Assembly: GCA_946480015.1 (NCBI GenBank)
Contig: CAMLIL010000009.1
Location: forward strand, 29,772 to 93,771
Origin: an uncultured Oxalobacteraceae bacterium
Lineage (GTDB): Bacteria > Pseudomonadota > Gammaproteobacteria > Burkholderiales > Burkholderiaceae
DNA: 64,000 nt
Direction: 5' to 3'
Of the stretch, positions 13,306 to 20,199 are shown one piece after another (within the stretch, counting starts at the first letter, position 1; each line of letters starts with the position of its first letter). The notes beneath the pieces are model-generated. The model made no database searches, was not told the origin of the DNA, and saw only the letters and a list, made by a program, of their open reading frames with translations. Position numbers and translations under genes: made by a program.

Positions 13306-13692
13306 ATGTCTGGCTTTAGCATCAATATCGAACAAAAAACTTTGGAGGGTAACAACTTCCGCGAAGTGCTGTACACCACGGCGCGCAGCCAGCTGGTCAT
13401 CATGACCCTGCAGGCGGGCGAGGAAATCGGCATGGAGCATCACACCGGCCACGACCAGTTCATTCGTGTCGAGGAAGGTGAAGGCGTGGCCATTCTCGAT
13501 GGCGAGGAGCATCCGCTGGTCGATGGCACCGCAGTGGTGATTCCGGCCGGGACCGAGCACAACGTGATCAATACATCACAGACCGCGCCGCTGCGCCTGT
13601 ACACCCTGTACACGCCGCCCGAGCATCCGGACGGCATCGTGCACCGGACCAAGTCCGAGGCCGACGCGTACGAACAGCAGCACGGGCACTAA
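13306..13692 (+). CDS. Small cupin-domain protein
   Basis: A 128-residue single-domain cupin. Motif 1 is GMEHHTGHDQFIRVEEGEG (two His and a Glu as possible metal ligands) and motif 2 is VIPAGTEHNVINTS with the last His ligand. It starts 28 nt after fumC in the same direction, so it may be co-transcribed. Function unknown; such proteins range from isomerases to small-molecule binders. Its stop overlaps the convergent gene by a few nt. Confidence 0.85.
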   Translation: MSGFSINIEQKTLEGNNFREVLYTTARSQLVIMTLQAGEEIGMEHHTGHDQFIRVEEGEGVAILDGEEHPLVDGTAVVIPAGTEHNVINTSQTAPLRLYTLYTPPEHPDGIVHRTKSEADAYEQQHGH

Positions 13693-14387
13693 AAGTCGAT
13701 GCCGTAGCGCGCGCCCAGGGTTATGCCGCGCTGCACGCCCGGGGTGCCGTCGACGCTGGCGATGCCGGCGCTTTTGGTGGGTGCAATCAGGGCCAGGCCG
13801 GCGCTGTCGCCCTTGACGAGTAATTTACGTGCCGACAGGCCGACGCTGAATGCGGCGGCCATCGAGGGCGTCGCCTCGGACAGCAAGGCGGCGTTGCGCA
13901 CGCCGGTAGTGCGGCCAAACGAGGCCATGCCGACCAGCGCCACCGACGGCGTCAGCGCATAGCCGACCGATACGGAAGTGAACGCGGTGCGCGTGGCCTG
14001 GCTCCAGGGGGCGCCCTCGGCCTGCTGGCGAGCCAGCAGCGCCTTGGCCTGGCGAATCGCGCCCACCTTTACATTGGCATAACCCCATTCCAGCTTTTGA
14101 TCGAATTCGATGCCGGCCAGCGAACGGCCCGGCGCCGACGCGCCCAGCGGCAACAGATCGCTGAGCGCGGCGCGGCCAGACAACAATCCCAGCCGCAGAC
14201 GGCGGCCCTCGGACATGGTCAAGGTCAGGCCGACATTGCGCTCGCGCTGCAAGGCCGTTGGCAACACCACCACAGTGGCGCGCGCGTCGCGCAGCTCAGG
14301 CAGCGGCGCGCCGTTCGCGAAGAGCGGCGCGGCCGAGGCGGCGTGCAGTGCGGGACCGAGGCTTGCCGCCAATAGGAATTTGTTCAT
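13689..14387 (-). CDS. Hypothetical exported protein, possible outer-membrane barrel
   Basis: A 232-residue protein with a signal peptide (MNKFLLAASLGPALHAASA). The rest alternates polar and hydrophobic residues with many Gly/Ala and ends in aromatic Phe (GARYGIDF), as outer-membrane beta-barrels often do. Segments such as TSVSVGYALTPSVALVGMAS look like barrel strands. No family was recognised. It is convergent with the cupin gene. Confidence 0.6.
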   Translation of the reverse strand: MNKFLLAASLGPALHAASAAPLFANGAPLPELRDARATVVVLPTALQRERNVGLTLTMSEGRRLRLGLLSGRAALSDLLPLGASAPGRSLAGIEFDQKLEWGYANVKVGAIRQAKALLARQQAEGAPWSQATRTAFTSVSVGYALTPSVALVGMASFGRTTGVRNAALLSEATPSMAAAFSVGLSARKLLVKGDSAGLALIAPTKSAGIASVDGTPGVQRGITLGARYGIDF

Positions 14388-14560: not shown

Positions 14561-14794
14561 ATGCAAAAAATGAATTTTGAACTGGCCGGCGAGTTCGTCG
14601 AGCTCAATCAGCTGCTCAAGCTGGTCGGCGTATGCGACAGCGGCGGTGCCGGCAAGGCCATCGTGGCCAGCGGCGAGGTGGCCGTGGACGGCAACCGCGA
14701 ACTGCGCAAGACCGCCAAGATCCGCGCCGGCCAGATCGTCACCCTGGGCGACGTGCGCATCCATGTGGTGGGCGGGCCGACCGATGGCGCCTGA
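14561..14794 (+). CDS. S4-domain RNA-binding protein (YbcJ-like)
   Basis: A 77-residue protein consisting of one S4 fold: LVGVCDSGGAGKAIVASGEVAVDG, here with the pattern GGxAKxxIxxGxVxVNG in variant form, then RAGQIVTLGD. E. coli YbcJ has the same size and build. S4 domains bind structured RNA; the target here is unknown. Two close start codons exist (ATGCAAAAAATG). Confidence 0.85.
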   Translation: MQKMNFELAGEFVELNQLLKLVGVCDSGGAGKAIVASGEVAVDGNRELRKTAKIRAGQIVTLGDVRIHVVGGPTDGA

Positions 14795-14864
14795 AGCACG
14801 GCAATCGCAAATTGTTCTTGCGTTACGGAAATATTAGTTTATTCTGGGAAGATAGCACCAGGGG

Positions 14865-14883
14865 GTGTACGCAGCGCGTACAC
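14865..14883. promoter_or_regulatory. Palindrome GTGTACGC-AGC-GCGTACAC (candidate operator or hairpin)
   Basis: A perfect 8-bp inverted repeat with a 3-nt centre lies about 70 nt upstream of the DUF883-like gene. It has no T-tract on either strand. A regulator site is possible but no bound protein can be named. Confidence 0.4.
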
Positions 14884-14951
14884 AACAGGAAAACACGATC
14901 TTTTGCTTGTCTATATCATAACGATATCGAAACCGGTTGAGGGTAGCCGCA

Positions 14952-15236
14952 ATGAGTAACCCCGAAGAACAATCCCTCATGCAAGAACGATTGATCGGCG
15001 ATCTGCGCATGGTCATCGAAAATGCCGAAGAGCTGCTGAAGAACACCGACCAGTACGCGGGCGGTGTTTATCACGGCGCGCGCAGCCGGCTCGCAAAGGC
15101 GCTGCAGGTGGCCACCGACGAACTGGCGCGCATCGAAGATATTCAACTCACCCGCATGATGAAGGCGACCGCCGCGGCCAATCTGCTGCACGAGGACGCC
15201 ACGGGCGAAGCGCGCCTGATGCGCGCCTTCCGCTAG
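14952..15236 (+). CDS. DUF883/ElaB-like protein lacking the membrane anchor
   Basis: A 94-residue helical protein. LIGDLRMVIENAEELLKNT near residues 14-32 is the DUF883 (ElaB/YqjD) start, proteins that bind ribosomes at the inner membrane in stationary phase. The usual C-terminal membrane helix with its GxxxG pattern is absent; instead the protein ends in a hydrophilic tail. It would therefore be soluble. The ATG at 14952 is preferred over an in-frame TTG at 14937. Confidence 0.65.
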   Translation: MSNPEEQSLMQERLIGDLRMVIENAEELLKNTDQYAGGVYHGARSRLAKALQVATDELARIEDIQLTRMMKATAAANLLHEDATGEARLMRAFR

Positions 15237-15240
15237 GACG

Positions 15241-16848
15241 CTAGCTCAGCGGCACCAGCACGCGGCAGTCCAGCCACAGCGCCAGATTGGCCGCCAGGTC
15301 GAACCCCGGGGCTACGGCAAACGCCAGATCGAGCGCGTCGCCCATGCGCACGCCCTCGCCCAGCGCCCTGAGCGCCGCCTCAGCCGCCCGGTCAAGGCAA
15401 TACAAGCGCACATCGAACTGCGGGCGCGCGATCAGCGCGCGCGACGGCGCCTGCATCGACTGCGGGAACGGCGCCGTATCGCCGTCGGTTCGATGCGCCA
15501 GCCACAAAGGCACCACCGCCCATTCCGACGCGAACAGCGAGCAGGCCGGGTGCACCGTGAAGCGCGCACTCTCGAACGTCTCGGGGGTGAGCGCCGCCGC
15601 CTCGACCGTTGCGGCGTCGGCGGCGTAATAGGCGCGGTGCAGCAGCCACTCCAGGCGCGCCATGTCCGGCAAATAAGGCAGCTCGGCCACATGGGGAAAA
15701 TCGGCCAGGAAGGCGGCGAAGTGTGCCCCGAAATGGTTCAGGTCGGGCGAATCGGATGGATGCGCCATGCCGTAGGCCCGGCTCAAGGCCCTGAAAAATT
15801 CGCCGCCCACCAGCTGGCGCACCACCGGATAGGCGTTCGACAGCGTCTTGTCCCAGGTGACGGTCAGATTGCCGCGGTACAGGCCGACCCGTTCGGGCAG
15901 ATGTTCACCCTTGAAGTCCGGCACATCGCGCGCGGGGTCGAACAGCGCCGCGGCAAAGGCCTGCTGGCGCTGCGCCAGATCGCCACCGCTGCCCAACGGG
16001 GGCCGTGCCTGTGGACCCGGCGCGGGGACGGGTGCGGCGCTGTTCGCGGCCAGCCGGTCCGCCTTGCGGGCCTCCTCCAGCAGCACTTCCAGCGGCGGCA
16101 GCGCGGTATCCCACTCGATCAGGGCCGGCACGCGGCCGAAGCGTGCCAGCGCGGCCCGGTACAGCTCCCACACCGGCTCGGCGACCGTGGCGCCGTGATG
16201 GTCGATCACCGCGTGCTCGGTCACCAGGTGCCCGGCCAGGTGGATCTCGCCCACCGATCCTGGTGCGATGGCGGCGATGGCGGCCAGTGCATCTTCGCCA
16301 TGGTTGCACTGGTTGACGTACAGGTTGTTCACGTCCAGCAGCAGCGTACAGCCGGTGCGCGCGGCCAGCGCGGCGAGGAACTCGGCCTCGCTCATGGCAT
16401 CGTCGCGGTAACGCAGATAGGTGGAGACGTTCTCGATCAGGATGGGGCGGCGCAGCGCTTCCTGCACCTGGTCGACGCGCTCGCACAGCAGCGCCAGCGC
16501 CTCCGGGCTCAAAGGCAGCGGCAGCAGGTCATTGAGCTGGCGGTCCGCCACGGCGCTCCAGCACAGGTGCTCGGACACCAGGAAAGGTTCGAGTTCGTCG
16601 ACCAGCGCACGCACGCGCGCCAGGTGGGCAGGCGAAAATCCGTGCGCCGAACCCAGGCCGAGGCCAACACCGTGCAGGCTGAAGGCATAGTCCTGGCGCA
16701 GGGTGCGCAGCACATGCCAATCCCAGCCCGCGCGCTCGATCACATTCTCGGTATGGACTTCCAGCCAGCCGATGCGCGGACGCGTGTCGAGGAACTGGCG
16801 GTAATGCGGGGCGCGCAGGCCGATGCCTGCGCCGTGAACCGTCGACAC
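15241..16848 (-). CDS. Bufferin maturase: fused MNIO (DUF692, BufB) and DUF2063 (BufC)
   Basis: A 535-residue two-domain protein. Residues 1-265 are a DUF692/MNIO (multinuclear non-heme iron oxidase) TIM barrel: [19 protein letters not shown] (His59), SEH (93-94), [13 protein letters not shown] (138-150), [16 protein letters not shown] (169-184), GEIHLAGH (200-207) and IEWD (244-247) give the metal-ligand set. After an Ala/Pro linker (270-290), residues 290-420 are DUF2063 ([20 protein letters not shown]), the RiPP-recognition partner. Known bufferin systems use BufB plus BufC to modify Cys residues of a BufA peptide; usually the two are separate genes. The GTG start lies 4 nt after the bufferin precursor stop. 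The fusion is the unusual feature. Confidence 0.88.
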
Positions 16849-16852
16849 CTGC

Positions 16853-17104
16853 TTATTTTGCCGCCGTCAGCTTGCCGCCGGCTTTTTCGCACGTGCCCTT
16901 GGCGACAAATTTCCACTCCTTCGGATCCTTGTCGACGGTGGACTGACCCGAGCACGAATGCGCGGCGGTGCCGCAGTCGTTCTGGCCGGCCTTGGCGACG
17001 CCGTAGCACTTTTCCTTTTCGGGCTTGGCGGGGGCATCGGCTGCGCAGGCGGATGCGCACACGGTGGCGAGGGCTGCGGCGATGAGGGCGTGACGTTGAT
17101 TCAT
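16853..17104 (-). CDS. Bufferin precursor (BufA-type, DUF2282)
   Basis: An 83-residue exported peptide. Residues 1-22 form a Sec signal ([21 protein letters not shown]), the special leader type of bufferins. The mature part has four Cys at 33, 44, 51 and 72 in the order [22 protein letters not shown], as in DUF2282 copper-binding RiPPs. In that family MNIO enzymes oxidise core Cys to thiooxazoles, and the product binds copper in the periplasm. It directly precedes the fused maturase (4-nt gap), and GGAG lies upstream of its ATG. It follows the yjfB-like gene by 43 nt, so read-through from there is possible. Confidence 0.85.
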
Positions 17105-17147
17105 TGGCTACTCCAGGCAAATTCGTGAGAATGCCATTGTAGACCGA

Positions 17148-17339
17148 TCAGGCGGTAGTGTTGATCCTGTTGCCTAGATGCGCCGGCAATTTTTGCGGGG
17201 CCGGAAGCGAGTCGATCAGCTGGGTCGCGGTCGCGCTCTCGATTTGCTGGGCGCGCTTGAGGATGGCGATGTCGACTTCCTGGAGCGTGCCGGTTTCGGT
17301 GATGGCGGTTGCCACTTTTGCGATGCCTGATACGTCCAT
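17148..17339 (-). CDS. YjfB-like putative motility protein
   Basis: A 63-residue protein, MDVSGIAKVATAITETG, then LQEVDIAILKRAQQIESATATQL and a short tail. This matches the small YjfB family annotated as putative motility proteins, whose genes are often under sigma-28/sigma-D. A sigma-28-like promoter lies 30 nt upstream (17370-17396). Molecular role unknown. Confidence 0.75.
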   Translation of the reverse strand: MDVSGIAKVATAITETGTLQEVDIAILKRAQQIESATATQLIDSLPAPQKLPAHLGNRINTTA

Positions 17340-17369
17340 GACAGTCTCCGTATTAACCCGTATCTTCCT

Positions 17370-17396
17370 TTTACGGACCGGTTCAAGGGAACTTTA
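17370..17396 (-). promoter_or_regulatory. Sigma-28-like promoter of the yjfB-like gene
   Basis: On the minus strand: TAAAGTTC, 11 nt, TCCGTAAA. Compared with TAAAGTTT-N11-GCCGATAA this is 7/8 and 5/8 with exact spacing. It overlaps the last codons of mobB. The gene it faces is a motility-family gene, which makes chance less likely. Confidence 0.6.
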
Positions 17397-17909
17397 GGCC
17401 GGCACGGCGAAATATTTGGCGACCAGCCATTCCAGCACCTGTTCGGGGGCGTTCAGGTCGAGCCAGGCGACGGCCGGCGGCACATCGGCGGGCCGCCCCA
17501 CATCCGACGCCACCGCCACGATGTGGCCATCGGTGGGATACAAGGCCATCTGGCCGAGCGCGGGCCGATGCACTTCGAGCTTGTCGACCGGCTCCCACTT
17601 GTACCCTTCCACCAGGGTCAGGTCGGCCGGCGCCATGCGCGCGAGGTGCGCGGACAGCGGCGGTTCGGCGGCGCCGCGCAGCTCGTGCATGATGGCGCTG
17701 CGGTAGGGAGAGGCGATCATCACTTCGGCCGCGCCGGCCATGCGCAGGCGCGCGCTGTCCTTGTGGGGCGGTTCAAGCAGGATGTCGTGGTGGCTGTGCT
17801 TGACGATGTTCACGCGCCGGCCGGCTGCGGCCAGGCGGGTCACCAGGTATTCAAGCAGGGTAGTCTTGCCGCTGCCGGACCAGCCCACGACCCCCAGTAT
17901 GTTCTGCAT
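17394..17909 (-). CDS. mobB: Molybdopterin-guanine dinucleotide biosynthesis adaptor MobB
   Basis: A 171-residue GTP-binding protein with the P-loop [14 protein letters not shown] at residues 9-22. Next come [21 protein letters not shown] and [19 protein letters not shown], all diagnostic of MobB. It assists MobA in attaching GMP to molybdopterin in the cytosol. The start [12 protein letters not shown] matches the family; an upstream in-frame ATG at 17951 would add 14 unlikely residues. It stands alone here, without mobA or moeA, 51 nt after gspB. Confidence 0.92.
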
Positions 17910-17960
17910 GTTCGCCCTTGACGCCAAATTGATAAGAGCGCCATTATACAAACGGCATGT

Positions 17961-18620
17961 TCAATAGGGCACGCGGTAGCGATAGCCGCGGTAATTCATC
18001 ACCGCCGCTTTCGGCAGCAGCTTTTCCAGCGTCAGGCCGGGCGCGACCTCCTCGCCCTCATGGCGCAGCACCTTGTCGATCAGGAGCAGCCGGTCAGCCG
18101 GATTGGACGAGTAGATGTAGCCGCCGATGTTCACCTGCGGCAGCTCGCGCGTGATCGCCTCCGGCAGGTCGCGCAGCGATGGATAGGTCGGCTCGGCCGG
18201 TGCCGTCTGCACCGGCCTGGGCGCGGGCACGGGCGCGGGCGCGGGCGCGGCCTCGGCCCTGCGCACCGGTTCAGGCGGCGCAGCCACGGGGGCCGGCGCG
18301 ACCGCGCGCGCGGGCGCCGGTGCCGGGGCGAACACGGTTGCCGGCGCCGGGACGATTGGCGCCGGTGCGACCGGTGCAGGTGCGATCGGCGCCGGCGCGG
18401 CAGCAAGCGGCGCCACGGCCGCCGGCCTGGCGCGCCAGCTGACGGCCGCGAACACGGCGGCGCCCAGCACCAGCACGGCCAGCGCCGCCCACAGGGCCAT
18501 GCTGCGCTCGCGTGCCGGCGCCGCCGCGGCCGGCCGGAGCGGCTGCTGGTCGAGCGTGGGCGCGTTGCCCAGCTGGCGTTCGGCCTGGGCCTTTTTCAAC
18601 GCTTCGAGAATATAGGACAT
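17961..18620 (-). CDS. gspB: General secretion pathway protein GspB
   Basis: A 219-residue inner-membrane protein. It starts MSYILEALKKAQAERQLG, the family's cytosolic signature, followed by one membrane helix (about 42-62) and a long Ala/Pro periplasmic linker. The C-terminal domain has LPQVNIGGYIYSSNPADRLL near residue 165 and ends NYRGYRYRVPY. GspA-GspB (ExeAB) use ATP and peptidoglycan binding to insert the type II secretin GspD. The gene starts 1 nt after the gspA stop. Confidence 0.92.
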   Translation of the reverse strand: MSYILEALKKAQAERQLGNAPTLDQQPLRPAAAAPARERSMALWAALAVLVLGAAVFAAVSWRARPAAVAPLAAAPAPIAPAPVAPAPIVPAPATVFAPAPAPARAVAPAPVAAPPEPVRRAEAAPAPAPVPAPRPVQTAPAEPTYPSLRDLPEAITRELPQVNIGGYIYSSNPADRLLLIDKVLRHEGEEVAPGLTLEKLLPKAAVMNYRGYRYRVPY

Positions 18621-18621
18621 A

Positions 18622-20199
18622 TTATTTCGCTCCCGCCGCGGCGAGCAGACGCGGCTCGCCCTCCCCGGTCAGCTGGTTCAGGCGCATAAAGGTGCGCGGA
18701 CCGGCCACGCCGTCGGCCTTGAGATGCTGGCCGGCCTGGAAAGCCCGCAGCCTGTCCTGCATGGCGGCGTCGAGCCGCTGCCCGCCCGCCGGCGCGACTT
18801 CGCCGTCGAGCTGCGCCAGACGGGCGGCGATCCAGTCGACTTCCGGACCCTGCCCGCCCGCCGCGACCTGGTCGCGGAAACTGCGCGGCATGCGCCACAA
18901 GGTGGTAAAGCTGCCATCGAAACGGGTGGCCAGCAGCGCCAGCGGCAGGCGCTGGGTGCGGCCGTCGGCACGCAGGGTGACGCTGCTGTCGTCCAGCGCC
19001 ACCAGCAGGGCGTAGCCGGTGGAGGCCCCTTCGTGCAGGGCGATCACGGCGGGCCGGTCGAGCAGGCGCAGTTCGTACAGGCCGCCCTTGCCCTGATGGC
19101 AGCGCAAGCCGGCCTTGCGCGCCAGCTCGCAGGCATCGCCGTCGCCCAGCGGCTGCTTCCACAGCCCGGCCAGTTCGCGCAGCGCGTCCTGTTCGGCGGC
19201 CAGGGTCAGGGGCGTCGGCGGCGCCGGCGGCGCGCTCCGGGGTTTGGGTACGGCCGGCTGCAGCGCCACCGGGGCCGGCGCTCTGGCCGGTATCAGCTGC
19301 CAGGCCGCCGCCGCGCTGAGCGCCACGCCGGCCAGCGCGGCGGCGATCGGCCAGCGCGCCTTGCGTGCCGGTGCCTGGGCGGCGCCCTCGAACACTTCGG
19401 CGGCCGCGCGCATCAGGATCGCGCGCGTGACATCGCGGCCGCCCTCGACGTAGGCCCCCAGCAGCGCGCGGTCGCACAGCAGATTGATCCGGCGCGGCAC
19501 GCCCTGCGTCAGGCGATGTATCAACACGGTCAGCCTGGCCGGAAACGGATTGTTGGCCGTGGCGCCAGCCACCGCCATGCGGTGCGCGATGTAGCTGCCG
19601 GTTTCGGCTTCGGACAAGGGACCCAGGTGGTAGCGGGCAATCACGCGCTGCGCCAGCTGCTCCATCTCGGGCGCCGCGAGCATGGCGCGCAGCTCCGGCT
19701 GGCCGATCAGGATAATCTGCAGCAGTTTGCGCTCGCTGGTTTCCAGGTTGGTCAGCAGGCGCAGTTGTTCGAGCACGCTGGCCGCCAGGTTCTGCGCTTC
19801 GTCGATGACCAGCACATTGTTCAGGCCTTGCGCGTGACTCTCCAGCAGGTAGCGGTTGATGGCGTCGATGAAGCCCTTGACCCCGGCCGGTTCGCTCGGC
19901 AGCGCGATGCCGAATTCTTCGCACACCGACAGCAGCAGTTCGGCCACCGTCAGCTTGGGATTGAAGATGTAGGCCAGGCGGCAGTTGGACGGAACCTGTT
20001 CGATGAAGCAGCGGCACACGGTGGTCTTGCCGGCGCCGATTTCGCCGGTGAGCAGCACGAAGCCGCCGCCGCTGCCGATCCCGTACAGCAGGTGCGCCAG
20101 CGCCTCGCGATGGCGCTCGCTCATGAACAGGTAGCGCGGGTCGGGCGCGATCGAAAACGGCGGCTGCTTCAAACTGAAGTATTGCGTGTACATGGGCAT
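18622..20199 (-). CDS. gspA: GspA/ExeA-like AAA ATPase with peptidoglycan-binding domain
   Basis: A 525-residue protein. It begins MYTQYFSLKQPPFSIAPDPR (after two optional residues), as ExeA does. The AAA ATPase part has Walker A TGEIGAGKTTVCR near residue 51 and Walker B VLVIDEAQN near residue 130. A membrane helix follows near residue 285. The C-terminal peptidoglycan-binding domain includes LKADGVAGPRTFMRLNQL near residue 493. It pairs with gspB to place the type II secretin in the cell wall. No other gsp genes are in the window. ATG at 20193 is an equally likely start. Confidence 0.92.
   Translation of the reverse strand: MPMYTQYFSLKQPPFSIAPDPRYLFMSERHREALAHLLYGIGSGGGFVLLTGEIGAGKTTVCRCFIEQVPSNCRLAYIFNPKLTVAELLLSVCEEFGIALPSEPAGVKGFIDAINRYLLESHAQGLNNVLVIDEAQNLAASVLEQLRLLTNLETSERKLLQIILIGQPELRAMLAAPEMEQLAQRVIARYHLGPLSEAETGSYIAHRMAVAGATANNPFPARLTVLIHRLTQGVPRRINLLCDRALLGAYVEGGRDVTRAILMRAAAEVFEGAAQAPARKARWPIAAALAGVALSAAAAWQLIPARAPAPVALQPAVPKPRSAPPAPPTPLTLAAEQDALRELAGLWKQPLGDGDACELARKAGLRCHQGKGGLYELRLLDRPAVIALHEGASTGYALLVALDDSSVTLRADGRTQRLPLALLATRFDGSFTTLWRMPRSFRDQVAAGGQGPEVDWIAARLAQLDGEVAPAGGQRLDAAMQDRLRAFQAGQHLKADGVAGPRTFMRLNQLTGEGEPRLLAAAGAK

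Follow-up and report, generated by a model that had tools for sequence, protein, structure and literature searches.

A Probable Copper-Buffering Bufferin Locus With a Natural Single-Chain BufB-BufC Maturase in an Oxalobacteraceae Bacterium

Introduction

In the bufferin loci described so far, the maturation enzyme and its partner are normally encoded by two genes, as an earlier note on this DNA had stated and as PMC12452194 bears out. This raises the question of how to understand a locus in a 64-kb window (the whole stretch of DNA analyzed, 64,000 nucleotides of contig CAMLIL010000009.1 from an uncultured Oxalobacteraceae bacterium), where a single gene, here called bufBC, joins a multinuclear non-heme iron-dependent oxidase (MNIO, DUF692) to a DUF2063 partner and follows a small DUF2282 precursor gene, bufA. 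Is the fused gene real, how widespread is it, and what would its product do? We consider it very likely that the locus is a bufferin-1-type system, producing a copper-buffering ribosomally synthesized and post-translationally modified peptide (RiPP) with the help of a natural single-chain BufB-BufC maturase, by the mechanism proposed below.

Results and Discussion

Precursor and Fused Maturase

The bufA open reading frame (ORF) runs from 17104 to 16853 (16853..17104, minus strand), starts with ATG, and comprises 83 codons. Its 83-amino-acid product matches PF10048 (DUF2282) with 82.1 bits (cut-off 22.4), and has the features of a bufferin 1 (Buf1-type) precursor, i.e., the DUF2282 domain, four conserved cysteines, and a Sec-type signal peptide judged from the sequence by eye. 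The earlier note had correctly placed the core cysteines at residues 33, 44, 51, and 72, but left uncounted two extra ones, Cys16 and Cys20, both of which lie inside the signal peptide (about residues 1–22, 17039..17104, minus strand, its end likewise judged by eye; Cys16 codon at 17057-17059). The codons of Cys44 (16973..16975) and Cys51 (16952..16954), both on the minus strand, mark the expected thiooxazole sites by inference from Buf1 (PMC12452194).

After a gap of 4 nt (16849..16852, minus strand) follows bufBC (15241..16848, minus strand), with a GTG start and a 535-amino-acid product. ORFs and Pfam agree with the earlier note that both halves lie in one gene directly behind the precursor, and also support its assignment of the locus to the bufferin type (DUF2282/Buf1). 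The N-terminal half is a full-length BufB-type MNIO domain (residues 6–267, 16048..16833, minus strand), which PF05114 matches with 332.8 bits (cut-off 25) and NF050167 (MNIO_BufB) with 353.2 bits, above its curated cut-off of 310; its nearest solved folds are TglH and 3bww. Residues N174/N175, D216, and H218 are invariant in 45 fused proteins, and the residues essential in HvfB (N175, D242, and H244) are kept in the fused protein, a correspondence read via 3bww and not HvfB itself. Seven further residues are invariant in the same 45 proteins (H59, H94, E139, D172, H203, E245, and D247), which we take to be likely ligands.

The C-terminal half contains a DUF2063 domain (PF09836, 78.1 bits, over the cut-off; residues 293–381, 15706..15972, minus strand) followed by an RRE-like (RiPP recognition element) domain at about residues 430–535 (15241..15561, minus strand; bounds from the structure model). 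When these 251 residues were modeled (predicted local distance difference test, pLDDT, 93.7; predicted template modeling score, pTM, 0.89), the model resembled 3dee and TglI across both domains, so that in the prediction this half has the make-up of a PME-type-1 partner (BufC), namely DUF2063 plus a full RRE-type domain in about 250 residues. The last 80–90 residues also match RRE structures of lasso peptide and cyanobactin systems, at scores no higher than that of a carbamoyltransferase domain. Between the two halves lies a poorly conserved linker (about residues 268–288, 15985..16047, minus strand). Across 116 fused proteins the gap between the domain profiles varies from 13 to 96 residues (median 28) and consists of 26% Ala and 13% Pro; judged by this variable length, the Ala/Pro-rich composition and the poor conservation, the linker is a loose tether.

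Distribution and History of the Fusion

A genome scan for relatives yielded 160 related stretches, the best 80 of which were kept (L001-L080). In each of the 80, a single ORF contains both halves and is immediately preceded by a DUF2282 ORF; in L079 the reading frame as read begins within the MNIO domain. The third-position GC of bufBC stays at 0.78–0.94 in a single frame across the domain joint. A protein search gave 5275 matches at E <= 1e-20 among 7995 scored candidates, and every protein among the 120 matches listed, the window's own included, carries both Pfam domains in one chain of 511–564 residues. Since so many relatives share it, the fusion is confirmed as genuine and inherited. It makes the locus a variant of a known system, because BufB and BufC are here one 535-amino-acid ORF instead of separate proteins. 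The databases already contain this architecture, under the NCBI name "MNIO family bufferin maturase."

The record titles of the relatives are mostly of Oxalobacteraceae (Massilia, Duganella, Janthinobacterium, Rugamonas, Pseudoduganella, Herbaspirillum, and Herminiimonas). A record titled as a Bifidobacterium breve metagenome-assembled genome (L072) holds a Burkholderiales-type locus with a divergent precursor, and is probably a mis-binned contig. Of 17 genomes from the genus of M. atriviolacea, 16 encode the complete fusion in a single frame; the 17th has a broken copy of the fused gene (G523:C1:1196270-1197860). In a draw of 145 genomes from its family, the grouping being as defined by the search tool, 86 gave a match, which among the matches listed was full-length, single-frame and stop-free in 39 genomes. 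Another five (G112, G050, G044, G124, and G022) have both halves in frame, but cut or with a longer linker, and in many other genomes MNIO and partner are separate ORFs. A class-wide draw gave matches in 223 of 369 genomes.

From the matches listed for these two draws, 100 loci were picked by hand, 36 of them fused and 64 split. In the split pairs the partner gene starts near or overlaps the MNIO stop codon. On an MNIO-domain tree of 109 rows, whose bootstrap is not fully settled, the fused/split label needs seven changes, all of them forced by starred branches. Apart from the split L113, all rows of the window's clade are fused (37), and L112, also split, lies just outside; other fused rows stand apart among split ones (L104 with L106; L110; L147-L149; L150; L151). 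Therefore, the fusion either recurred or was undone; such changes cannot separate gain from loss, and repeated fusion is the simplest reading of the tree. In any case, the fusion is the rule in the window's Oxalobacteraceae clade and not a peculiarity of the window genome.

Proposed Mechanism

We propose that the precursor is bound by the C-terminal DUF2063-RRE half, probably via the conserved signal peptide, and that this half also supports the iron cofactor of the MNIO half. The N-terminal MNIO would oxidize the central Cys44 and Cys51 to 5-thiooxazoles in the cytoplasm. The modified peptide would then be exported by Sec, Cys33 and Cys72 would form a disulfide after export, and the mature peptide would chelate copper in the periplasm. 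The linker, as a loose tether, would keep enzyme and partner in a 1:1 ratio.

Several observations weigh against this reading. The sole NCBIfam bufferin-precursor model that matches the precursor, NF050166 (BufA2), scores it at 34.6 bits, below the cut-off of 60; the model fits a Buf2-type protein at 98.2 bits, and no DUF2282-type model matched in the NCBIfam search. The fused protein also stays under the cut-offs of the HvfB (216.5 vs. 360) and HvfC (49.9 vs. 142) models. A PDB sequence search with a profile of the C-terminal half gave three chance-like matches and no partner protein, so the link of this half to 3dee rests on the fold comparison and PF09836. Further, the analysis covered the 64-kb window, and the rest of the genome may contain doxX, a sigma factor or another maturase. 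The core set of a bufferin biosynthetic gene cluster (precursor, MNIO, DUF2063, and DoxX) is incomplete at the window locus for want of DoxX, which lowers only its status as a complete canonical gene set.

Conservation of the Signal Peptide

By analogy with oxazolin, for which the signal peptide is indicated as the leader (PMC13419390), the signal peptide of bufA is a probable recognition leader. We compared 80 fused-set precursors, the window included and L072 omitted, as its start could not be set. Their mean pairwise identity is 0.84 in residues 1–16 and 0.73 in the mature core, but 0.34 in the stretch between. The 11 close split relatives (L114-L124) have 0.68 in the signal peptide and 0.81 in the mature core, and 39 split precursors 0.28 and 0.55 (9 of 48 rows were dropped, seven with an untrusted start plus two, L112 and L113, that group with the fused clade). 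At a mature identity of 0.6 and 0.7, respectively, signal-peptide identity is 0.81 and 0.83 in the fused set vs. 0.25 and 0.31 in the 39 split precursors, while the close split relatives reach 0.63 at 0.7 (7 pairs) and 0.64 at 0.8 (33 pairs, vs. 0.84 in the fused set), with the caveat that sequence pairs are not independent. Conserved fourfold codons vary at least as much in their third base within the signal peptide (mean 1.13 bits over 9 sites) as within the mature part (0.90 bits over 11 sites), and therefore selection acts on the protein; an RNA-level cause was dismissed. A structured RNA was likewise dismissed, as 14700-18000 gave no Rfam match at gathering scores.

Cys16 is part of this pattern. 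It is present in 77 of 81 precursors (L001-L080 and the window), whereas only L112 and L113 of the 48 split precursors, the seven with an untrusted start included, have a cysteine in the region matching residue 16. Since these two are split, the trait goes with the clade, not with the fusion as such. We rejected the idea of a lipobox at Cys16, as the sequence does not fit the lipobox pattern. A 2026 paper by Junger et al. reportedly claims in its title that the signal peptide acts as the bufferin leader, and the passages searched in the bufferin/MNIO literature make no mention of a conserved Cys16. A more speculative idea, which we regard as improbable but worth stating, is that the clade's signal peptide is a fixed leader matched to the maturase, in which Cys16 is engaged by the tethered MNIO-RRE (iron-bound or oxidized) and keeps the precursor cytoplasmic until the core cysteines are done, i.e., a thiol-based export checkpoint.

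DoxX and the Promoter

A search with two DoxX proteins found none in the 64-kb window, and the Pfam-matched neighbors (DUF883, S4, YjfB, and MobB) are of no known regulator kind, as the earlier note had said of the adjacent genes. Its suggestion of a minimal version of the system fared less well. DoxX (PF07681) follows the fusion in 31 of the 80 loci and is lacking in 49, a lack that goes with that of a promoter pattern of the extracytoplasmic function (ECF) type. Among the split sisters, nine of 13 have both doxX and the motif (L113-L115, L119-L124) and four have neither (L112, L116-L118). We dismissed a minimal primitive version in favor of a derived state, which the lack of doxX at the window probably represents.

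The ECF-type pattern is TGTAA-N14-20-CGACTAC, one mismatch being allowed. Within 300 nt upstream of bufA it occurs in 29 of 31 doxX-bearing loci vs. one of 50 loci without doxX (49 relatives and the window); shuffled upstream regions match at 0.4%. Because the pattern was derived from these bufA upstream regions, finding it there is in part built in, which does not apply to its split by doxX. No such motif lies within 300 nt of the window bufA. An exact search for TGTAAG-N16-18-CGACTA covered 28 genomes: of the 18 selected as motif-bearing, 16 have one or two sites, and the 10 selected as doxX-minus have none; a reversed control pattern gave 0–5 matches per genome, and single extra sites need caution. 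Such extra sites precede a Buf2-type precursor with a separate MNIO (L198:1589-1858) and msrP (L199:455-1432), which suggests a shared envelope-stress regulon, and another precedes an orphan DUF2282-doxX pair (L213). Those in L191, L202 (before a repeat-rich putative lipoprotein), L192, L196, and L197 have no clear regulon gene. NrsF was dismissed as the linked regulator, since the occurrence of PF06532 (19 of 50 genomes) does not track that of the motif.

How far does the association of doxX with the motif reach? It fails outside the clade's near relatives. Many farther split loci have doxX without the motif (e.g., L125-L133, L159-L160, L163-L168, and L172-L179), while L136, L140, and L145 have both. 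On a tree of 81 rows there are only seven doxX and six motif changes, and a pair test was not significant (3 supported pairs); the raw count is thus inflated by relatedness. With 25 hand-picked loci added (106 rows), each trait changes 12 times; among six supported independent pairs, the two traits change in the same direction in 4.9 on average and in opposite directions in 0.1 (sign test, median p 0.06). Joint gain and loss of doxX and motif in the window's clade is therefore suggested but not proved.

The operon of the window lineage, without doxX and the ECF-type promoter, probably runs from a sigma-70-type promoter. A candidate by consensus match, TCAACA-17-TACAAT (17136..17164, minus strand), ends 31 nt before the bufA start codon; the scan found two sites in the region vs. 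0.3 in shuffles, the second on the plus strand.

Alternative Explanations

One alternative is that this bufferin-like system deals with another metal or with oxidative stress instead of copper. The ECF-type promoter is common to related loci, and precedes msrP in one genome; DUF2282-DUF692-DUF2063(-DoxX) operons as well as YedY belong to the Caulobacter sigma-F regulon, which is linked to chromate and other heavy metals (PMC3511200); and "gig" operons were named for gold (PMC12452194). However, the Caulobacter bufferin 1 is a copper chelator that helps cells grow when copper is in excess (PMC12452194), and the window locus is without the ECF-type promoter. We therefore regard a duty other than copper as unlikely.

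Alternatively, the fused enzyme might also, or chiefly, serve unlinked precursors, or make a different Cys modification. One genome has an orphan DUF2282-doxX pair (L213:1337-2179), with the clade's signal-peptide motif and the ECF-type promoter but no MNIO or other maturase found beside it, which could be a substrate in trans. More than one DUF2282 occurs in 11 of 50 genomes, and five of 14 fetched extra-copy regions (L204, L205, L213, L214, and L216) show no MNIO or BufC. By contrast, 39 of the 50 genomes have a single DUF2282, no second one was found in the 64-kb window, and all 80 loci have the cognate gene next to the maturase gene, which leaves this explanation with little likelihood.

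Lastly, a sequencing or assembly frameshift uniting two separate overlapping genes, which the earlier note had named as what would refute it, is conceivable in that BufC is read in another frame than BufB in 57 of the 64 split loci (39 at +1, 18 at +2), where an indel could join them, but was dismissed as having practically no probability, given independent genomes in many separate assemblies that carry the fusion (80 of 80 kept relatives), a frame-specific GC unbroken across the joint, and 13–96 linker residues between the domain profiles. A bufferin-1-type copper system with a natural fused maturase is thus the reading that we retain.

Genomic Neighborhood

The gene order in the window is mobB - yjfB - bufA - bufBC - DUF883 - S4 - cupin - fumC side. 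Both direct neighbors, identified by Pfam, are outside the system, i.e., a YjfB-type gene upstream (17148..17339, minus strand) and a convergent DUF883 gene downstream (14952..15236, plus strand). Among the 80 loci, relatives of the neighbors near the fused gene are FumC-type (60), DUF883-like (36), MobB (26), S4 (17), and YjfB (12), counts that come from rough ORF calling and include a DUF883-like representative just under the Pfam cut-off; these conserved neighbors indicate an inherited chromosomal place. Between the cupin and S4-domain genes lies a secreted-looking ORF of 232 amino acids without a Pfam/NCBIfam match (13689-14387, minus strand). Next to mobB are a GspB-like (T2SSB) type II secretion gene and an AAA ATPase with a peptidoglycan-binding domain (17961-20199, minus strand).

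Comparison With Known Systems

The locus is ordinary within its own clade. Noteworthy are the apparently repeated origin of the fusion, its resemblance to an enzyme built in the laboratory, and the patterns in signal peptide and promoter. Weak binding between enzyme and partner makes questions of cofactor and substrate recognition hard, and a natural single-chain maturase with its matched precursor is a ready tool for them. Further, the clade makes testable how a signal peptide doubles as a RiPP leader, given its unusual conservation and Cys16, and what role DoxX plays, as doxX tends to come and go there with one promoter type.

No natural BufB-BufC fusion was found in the literature searched by title or abstract start, a search that left subscription papers, including the founding bufferin report, mostly outside. 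The fusions named in the main text of PMC12452194 (MerC-bufferin, MNIO-nitroreductase, and others) include no MNIO-DUF2063 fusion, and the available text of PMC12668002/PMC13097082 and PMC12257519 mentions no natural one.

Like the bufferin 1 system bufABC(D) of Caulobacter vibrioides, the window locus has a DUF2282 precursor with a signal peptide and four core cysteines, an MNIO and a DUF2063-RRE partner in the order A-B-C; unlike it, BufB and BufC form one protein, and no doxX, sigF or nrsF adjoins. The Caulobacter sigma-F promoter is GTAACC-N16-CGAA, and the extra motif targets in relatives of the window locus are much like the sigma-F regulon (PMC3511200). The fold of the enzyme half is shared with TglHI (8hi7, 8hci) and MbnBC (7fc0, 7tcr), and that of the partner half with TglI, but these systems have separate chains, other substrates and other chemistry. 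The title of the MbnABC structure 7fc0 names Rugamonas rubra ATCC 43154; this strain also has a fused bufferin locus (L059), and copper-uptake and copper-buffering peptides may coexist in it.

MNIOs with an added domain in one chain are known from MovX and the MNIO-nitroreductase fusions (PMC13419390, PMC12452194), and MovX and ChrH are named as exceptions with extra domains (PMC13419390). However, the added part of MovX is described as an RRE or winged-helix domain instead of a complete DUF2063-RRE partner, and nitroreductase is a further enzyme. A close likeness is to the engineered HvfB-HvfC fusion for oxazolin, in which the MNIO is likewise followed by DUF2063-RRE in one chain at 1:1 and which showed markedly higher activity (PMC13419390). 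That fusion is laboratory-made, linkerless, and acts on an EGKCG-type substrate (PMC13419390), whereas the one in the window is natural, has a linker, and pairs with a DUF2282 substrate. Apparently several times, nature has joined enzyme and partner in the way that the authors of a 2026 preprint did by hand to obtain a more active thiooxazole-forming MNIO.
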